A DNA stretch of 64,000 nt from Pseudomonadota bacterium (GTDB lineage: Bacteria > Pseudomonadota > Alphaproteobacteria > Sphingomonadales > Sphingomonadaceae): NCBI GenBank assembly GCA_021847605.1, contig JAJZQN010000003.1, positions 62,001 through 126,000 of the forward strand, in the 5' to 3' direction. The number at the start of each line of letters is the position of its first letter. The first letter of the stretch is position 1. A program made the translations under genes and the position numbers. Below the pieces are notes generated by a model. That model saw only the letters and a list, made by a program, of their open reading frames with translations, had not been told where the DNA came from and searched no databases. Shown here in pieces: positions 24,732-25,692 of the stretch.

Positions 24732-25169
24732 ATGGCCAAACCCGAATCCTGGCGCTTCGCTCCCGAAGCCTATCGCTTCGTCACCAGCATCGATACGCGC
24801 TTTCAGGATCTCGATACCATGGGCCACATCAATAATGTGGCGATTTCGGGCATGTTCGAAACCGCGCGTATCCGCTTCCATCACCATCTGGGGCGCCATC
24901 CTCAGGAACAGGGCGTTCGCTGGCTGGTGGCCAATGTGAACCTGAACTTCATTCAGGAATCGCATTTCCCCTATCCGTTCGAAATTCATTGCGCGATCGG
25001 CCATATCGGCCGGACGAGCTGGACGATCAGCTCCGCCGCCTTTCAAAAGGGCGAATGCGTCGCCACCTGTGACACGACGGTCGTCACCCATGGCGCCGAA
25101 GGTCGCCGCTCGATCGAGGAATCGCTGCGCGAAGCGATGGAACGCAACTTCATCCTCCAGCCGGCATAA
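24732..25169 (+). CDS. Acyl-CoA thioesterase, hotdog fold (4HBT-like)
   Basis: This 145 aa protein has the 4-hydroxybenzoyl-CoA thioesterase/YbgC hotdog signature 'TRFQDLDTMGHINNVAI', where the Asp is the likely catalytic residue, followed by 'YPFEIHCAIGHIGRTSW'. It would hydrolyse an acyl-CoA or acyl-ACP thioester. The divergent TonB receptor is 250 nt upstream and the DUF983 gene converges from the right, so this gene is a single-gene unit. Confidence 0.85.
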   Translation: MAKPESWRFAPEAYRFVTSIDTRFQDLDTMGHINNVAISGMFETARIRFHHHLGRHPQEQGVRWLVANVNLNFIQESHFPYPFEIHCAIGHIGRTSWTISSAAFQKGECVATCDTTVVTHGAEGRRSIEESLREAMERNFILQPA

Positions 25170-25173
25170 GTCT

Positions 25174-25325
25174 GGTCAGGACTGCTCGACATTCAGAAGA
25201 TGGTGTGGCGAAAATGGTGAATTTTCGTGACCCGGAGCGCAGCGTACTTAAAGTACGTGAGCACCGGAAGCACGGAAATTCGCCATTTGCAGCCCGCCAG
25301 GGCTGAATGTCGAGCAGTCCTCACC
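25174..25325. repeat. Nested palindromic element, ~145 nt
   Basis: Outer arms AGGACTGCTCGACATTCAG (25178-25196) and CTGAATGTCGAGCAGTCCT (25303-25321) are a perfect 19 bp inverted repeat, extendable to 23 bp with one mismatch. Inside are nested complementary segments AAATGGTGAATTTTCGTG / CACGGAAATTCGCCATTT and a central odd palindrome CGTACTT-A-AAGTACG. The element fills the whole gap between convergent genes and overlaps the stop codon of the DUF983 gene. It can fold as one long interrupted hairpin on either strand. Confidence 0.85.
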
Positions 25326-25692
25326 GAAATCCGTACATCCGCTTTGCCCACTGAAACGCAATGACCGCGCCCTTTACCGGCTGGATCATCGCGACCGCCA
25401 AAATCGCGGCCAGCGTGGGCCAGATCGCCGCCTGCCAGCCAAGCGGGATGGACAGGGCGCTGTTCACCTCGATCATCAGCGGCACCAATATATGGCCCAG
25501 CAACAGGATGACGATATAGGCCGGGAAATCGTCGGCCCGATGCCCGTCCCATGGCTGGCCGCATGACGAACAGGCGGCGACCGGCTTCAGGAAACGGCCG
25601 AACAGCCGCCCCTCGCCACAGGCGGGGCATCGCCCGCGCAATCCCATGGCGATCGCTGGGCCAAGCGGGCGGGGCGGTGGTCCGTCAGTCAT
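25321..25692 (-). CDS. DUF983 family membrane protein
   Basis: This 123 aa protein has two N-terminal CxxC pairs in 'RGRCPACGEGRLFGRFLK' and 'CSSCGQPWDGH', then two hydrophobic segments (about 60-80 and 85-108). This is DUF983, an alphaproteobacterial family often found near cytochrome oxidase or DNA-metabolism genes, function unknown; the cysteines suggest a metal site on the cytoplasmic face. The stop codon lies inside the palindromic element. Starts with ATG at 25692. Confidence 0.85.
   Translation of the reverse strand: MTDGPPPRPLGPAIAMGLRGRCPACGEGRLFGRFLKPVAACSSCGQPWDGHRADDFPAYIVILLLGHILVPLMIEVNSALSIPLGWQAAIWPTLAAILAVAMIQPVKGAVIAFQWAKRMYGFR

Follow-up and report, generated by a model that had tools for sequence, protein, structure and literature searches.

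Judged by analogy, the closest known kind of element to the palindrome described here, in its way of working, is ERIC/IRU/RU-1 of enterobacteria and Vibrio, an imperfect palindrome over its full length of about 127 bp that has TA ends and a target duplication, is dispersed, often lies near the ends of genes and appears in transcripts as a hairpin (PMC2229807, PMC10969869). The mechanism by which ERIC-like palindromes move has still to be established, and the term MITE is used for such repeats in a wider sense that does not require a parent element (PMC2229807). Correia/NEMIS and RUP are likewise palindromic miniature elements that duplicate TA (PMC2229807). Palindromic or intergenic repeats have also been described in alphaproteobacteria, namely the Caulobacter CcrM-associated intergenic repeats (CIR), which are about 110 bp long (PMC2229807), RIME and the Sm repeats, which are dispersed intergenic elements in Rhizobiales (PMC2573895), and Bru-RS of Brucella and the Rickettsia palindromic elements (RPE), which measure about 100-150 bp (PMC2267715, PMC2229807).

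A long palindrome between two convergent genes

The element lies at 25179-25320 on the plus strand of the window, the whole stretch of 64,000 nucleotides that was analysed. These limits, which enclose 142 bp, were set by comparison with other copies, and covariance model R1 scores this copy at 150 bits in its own genome; its orientation is that of the family model, and the plus strand carries GTGAGCACCGG. On the left is a 4HBT thioesterase gene (24732-25169, plus strand; Pfam PF13279/PF03061) that ends 9 bp before the element, and on the right is a DUF983 gene (25321-25692, minus strand; PF06170) that is convergent with it. The initial annotation had described a long palindrome between these genes with perfect outer arms of 19 bp, two inner layers of complementarity and a central CGTACTT-A-AAGTACG palindrome, and in each of these respects it was right: the fold has 19 consecutive perfect pairs in its outer arms, the middle layers pair in the way claimed, and the central stem-loop is at 25243-25257 (plus strand), where sequence, fold and compensatory changes in columns 60-62/70-72 agree. 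The stem-loop is part of a conserved core, GTGACCCGGAGCGCAGC-stem-loop-GTGAGCACCGGAAGC (25227-25275, plus strand), defined in the class-wide alignment A4. The predicted fold of 25160-25340 reaches -102.4 kcal/mol on the plus strand (z -10.7) and -93.4 kcal/mol on the minus strand (z -9.8), and neither value was reached by any shuffle.

The outer arms as they pair in a repeat search extend slightly beyond the element, from 25174 to 25196 and from 25303 to 25325 (both on the plus strand), and are 96% complementary over 23 nt. The DUF983 stop codon had been placed within an arm; this is correct for the arm as first drawn and incorrect for the element proper, which the stop codon abuts. A TCA at 25321-25323, whose reverse complement is the TGA stop of the DUF983 gene, directly repeats a TCA at 25176-25178 (both plus strand), and since the two flank the element, the target duplication of the window copy may be a 3-bp TCA or a decayed TA.

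A dispersed family inserted at TA

The element belongs to a family whose copies are scattered through alphaproteobacterial genomes. Eight places in its own genome match model R1 (the window copy counted), in diverged form. Within Sphingobium, 78 of the 94 genomes have matches, S. indicum B90A and S. chlorophenolicum NBRC 16172 among them; the number per genome ranges over the 94 from 0 to at least 36, counting hits on the reverse strand of the palindrome. At the level of the class, the core model R2 matches 41 of 385 sampled alphaproteobacterial genomes, from about 39 genera. The exact core pattern was found in Novosphingobium, Sphingopyxis, Erythrobacter, Qipengyuania, Phyllobacterium, Mesorhizobium, Agrobacterium and a Brucella sp., and BLAST matches lie on plasmids of Shinella, Ensifer and Aminobacter. 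The length is exactly 142 bp, the mode, in 70 of the 101 copies with clear ends. We note that copies share ancestry, and that neither the copy counts nor the counts of alignment cells given below are counts of independent events.

Throughout the class the core is nearly constant (GAGAACCG-N-AGCGCAGYG, the stem-loop, then TGAGCANCGGAAGCGCAG). The arms differ between genomes and match within each copy; they read CTAGAGCCAATCGAC in genome G012, CTAGGCTGTATCGAC in G359 and CTAGGGTGTGTGGGG in G351.

Comparison with relatives shows that the family has moved. All 28 Sphingobium relatives examined retain the convergent thioesterase-DUF983 pair and lack the element there, the gap between the genes being only 12-37 nt in 19 of them. 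For other copies, we joined the flanks and searched for the empty site in sister genomes, which yielded about 20 alignments of filled against empty alleles; the clean ones are insertions of 144 bp, or of 168 bp in a longer variant. The targets are YTAR with the TA duplicated; when a site is predicted with one TA, it aligns without gaps to the empty allele in nearly all cases. That the duplication is TA alone follows from two comparisons, L184/L251 (empty TTTAGG, filled TTTA...CCCTAGG) and L187/L253 (empty CCTATA). Of the 101 copies, 88 begin after a left triplet CTA or TTA and 90 are followed by a right triplet TAG or TAA; because the boundary search favoured TA, these counts lean towards TA, but the empty sites are independent of it. 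An architecture of about 140-147 bp flanked by TA, with unrelated arms, also occurs in several distant families. Of 54 copies from across the class, 16 have TA at both ends, and many of the 54 are too decayed for their ends to be clear. The proposal that this is a mobile palindromic repeat is thus sustained by dispersed copies, by the empty site in relatives and by the filled/empty comparisons, and the two signs of mobility that had been named alongside it are both present, TA being duplicated at other copies and the window site being empty in relatives.

In eight relatives (L153, L155, L156, L157, L163, L165, L176 and L178) the thioesterase-DUF983 gap holds unrelated hairpin-rich sequences (GTCATTCCCGCGAAGGCGGGAAT in L153), which makes the gap a recurrent landing site for repeats.

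The first base of the element is G, so that a stop codon whose TA serves as the target is restored as TAG. A native stop codon of the neighbouring gene was at 12 of 19 resolvable empty sites (about 63%), on our reading of the alignments and counting three sites where the sister allele is now TGA. The expected share is about 17%, a rough figure from 53 non-coding YTAR sites in this window, which gives a binomial p of about 1e-5. Moreover, an open reading frame of at least 120 codons ends exactly at TA+G in 53 of 74 copies with long flanks, versus 11 and 19 in control frames. The excess of stop codons could reflect either target choice or the survival of harmless insertions. Among Sphingobium copies with long flanks, stop codons abut the right end about twice as frequently as the left (44 versus 20), a bias of orientation.

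We consider it well supported, with a probability of roughly 0.85, that the window element is a copy of a non-autonomous, ERIC-like mobile palindrome, an alphaproteobacterial miniature element. Insertion of the family at YTAR duplicates TA and leaves a full-length hairpin of 142 bp (or 166 bp); the TA hit is very often that of a stop codon, with the first G rebuilding TAG for a gene reading in from either side. The strand with GTGAGCACCGG is kept foldable, its inner core fixed and its arms free to vary as long as they remain complementary. According to this model, a trans-acting factor, probably a TA-targeting transposase, would recognise the fold or the core and not a fixed terminal sequence. 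Copies that settle at gene ends would become part of the transcript as a 3' hairpin and influence the ends of the mRNA, much as the hairpins of ERIC and NEMIS do. The window copy entered the gap between the thioesterase and DUF983 genes within this lineage. Several points count against the model. In G012 and G359, the two genomes searched for arms, neither a transposase nor a longer element sharing the arms turned up, and arm matches there are single copies and ordinary genes; the terminal arms are the least conserved part, unlike those of a MITE; and the window copy has TCA and not TA at its ends, with no close empty relative to fix its exact boundary. A candidate pair of arms 5 kb apart was rejected as an autonomous element, as no transposase-like gene was seen inside it by eye.

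A narrower form of this model, and not a full alternative to it, is that the family is a classic MITE that arose from a TA-targeting insertion sequence of the IS630/Tc1 or IS5/IS427 type through internal deletion. The family has features of TA-type MITEs, being short and non-coding, with complementary inverted ends and TA duplicated between filled and empty sites (the window copy, with TCA/TCA, lacks the TA form), and lineage-specific end sequences are common within a genome, as such an origin would lead one to expect. In the usual MITE, however, the ends are the most conserved part, for the transposase. Here the reverse is found, with a core fixed class-wide and terminal arms that are least conserved but complementary. 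A palindrome over the full length with a class-wide conserved core, and the failure of the searches of G012 and G359 to turn up a parent element sharing these ends, speak against this origin, and we regard it as possible but on the whole doubtful.

One strand appears to function folded

The initial annotation had also raised the possibility of a structured element, and the fold is borne out by covariation against controls as well as by a wobble bias confined to one strand. Among 38 copies, changes on both sides occurred in 24 of 43 pairs (8.6 in shuffles), there were 107 covarying cells (18 in shuffles), and 96.9% of cells were paired, compared with 33-39% when partners were slid. The locus is therefore not the unique sequence devoid of covariation that the initial annotation had set against its own reading. 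On the strand with GTGAGCACCGG, G.U pairs occupy 599 cells and A.C mismatches 121 over 116 copies; two G.U pairs are nearly fixed across these copies, and the outer arms keep the bias (about 71 G.U versus 27 A.C). Since an excess of G.U over A.C on one strand is what is expected if that strand functions folded, these comparisons of sequences point to the strand with GTGAGCACCGG functioning single-stranded, as RNA or as DNA. Resident copies, moreover, change slowly: over seven orthologous filled pairs the element has accumulated 32 differences, against about 74 predicted from the flanks, with four double compensatory changes in place, so that the element evolves about 2.3 times more slowly than flanks that are mostly coding. 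This fits constraint, and so some function, or else repair of one arm from the other.

The covariation, the strand-specific wobble and the slow, compensated change of resident copies relative to mostly coding flanks are also what would be seen if the element were a structured RNA gene or a cis-acting 3'-end element held by selection, its dispersal being incidental. We think this improbable in view of the recent insertions, the empty sites and the spread of match numbers among species within the genus (0 to at least 36). The gene contexts are also mixed (35 convergent, 28 tandem and 8 divergent among copies with both neighbours called), no associated gene family was seen among the neighbours of copies, and no Rfam family scored above its gathering score, the best match being to mir-1272, which is below threshold and implausible.

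If the folded strand is instead DNA, the element might be moved as REP/RAYT or IS200/IS605 elements are, through recognition of the folded lagging strand. A core with conserved unpaired bases, arms free to vary and a wobble bias on one strand would all suit such a mechanism, and in the sister pair G361/G362 the strand of the element follows the replichore in about 14 of 17 independent copies; this strand bias was, however, not seen in G359 or G008, and the GTAG-foot anatomy was not noticed. REP sequences are 20-40 nt long and have an associated RAYT transposase, whereas the element here is 142 bp. To our knowledge, HUH single-strand transposition would not be expected to duplicate a TA target, which also counts against this mechanism, and we give it little credence.

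A strong hairpin between convergent genes could in principle be an intrinsic terminator common to both, but this is very improbable here because no T-tract follows the hairpin, as it would in a standard terminator (on average 2.7 T in the 12 nt that follow the element, with 6 or more in only 2 of 101 copies), and because the hairpin is far longer than a terminator requires, as the initial annotation had remarked, is dispersed and also stands in tandem and divergent contexts.

Relation to ERIC and other palindromic repeats

The present family has the full-length imperfect palindrome and the TA duplication of ERIC but a different class of hosts. The layout of the core is similar as well, with a G.U wobble and a GA internal loop below a 5-bp stem. 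The best match of model R1 in 688 bases falls on ERIC in register (16.2 bits), while model R2 gives ERIC 11.6 bits, which is not significant (E 0.64 in a 50-kb control). Of 400 structure-preserving shuffles, 1 attained the score of ERIC against the core profile; ERIC was chosen for this comparison once the likeness had been seen. At the level of sequence, homology with ERIC is only suggested by these results, and for this reason we do not file the family as ERIC.

With respect to the other repeats, membership of CIR is excluded: CIR consists of two arms joined by a linker and carries GANTC, whereas the present element is one long hairpin and GANTC is absent from 84 of 101 copies. Model R2 has no match in S. 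meliloti pSymA or pSymB or in A. fabrum pAt, and membership of RIME is unlikely given 0 matches on the S. meliloti megaplasmids, the replicons of that species that were searched. For Correia/NEMIS and RUP the listed terminal repeats measure 24 bp and 9 bp, respectively, and the ends of RUP match an IS630 element, whereas the present family keeps its core and varies in its arms. The likeness to Bru-RS and RPE is one of description. The core sequence has no match in the full text of the papers searched; part of the family may nevertheless bear an older name in some host, RIME, CIR, Bru-RS and RPE having been compared by description.

A more far-reaching possibility, which we put forward tentatively and think unlikely as a whole, is that this is an ancient class-wide family of mobile palindromes whose folded core is recognised, whose targeting of stop codons is oriented and whose ancestry is common with ERIC of gammaproteobacteria. 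If so, ERIC-like elements would form one proteobacterial superfamily with a mobilising enzyme yet to be found. The many recent Sphingobium insertions with matching empty sites, genomes with 0 copies beside others with dozens, and the class-wide core make a search for the mobilising enzyme practical. Insertion at stop codons would let the element spread while sparing the genes, which would gain a hairpin at their 3' ends.

Several variants and locations deserve mention. One variant has an extra 24-nt core hairpin (about CTTGAAGCGAGTCACGTGCCTCGCTTCAA; L060, L061, L062, L063, L051, L187 and L188); its full-length hairpin is 166 bp and it inserts as 168 bp, TA included. Another has a different 5' middle arm, of the GAGCCGTCAGGCCAGCGCAGC type, with the core unchanged (L005, L006, L045 and L052). 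Three contigs from IMG/VR that are listed as viral (L074, L075 and L076) each hold one core copy. Finally, six small genomes of 1.3-2.1 Mb from distant families (G070, G206, G211, G425, G436 and G486) hold about ten or more copies each, and near-identical copies inside some of them suggest recent activity there.
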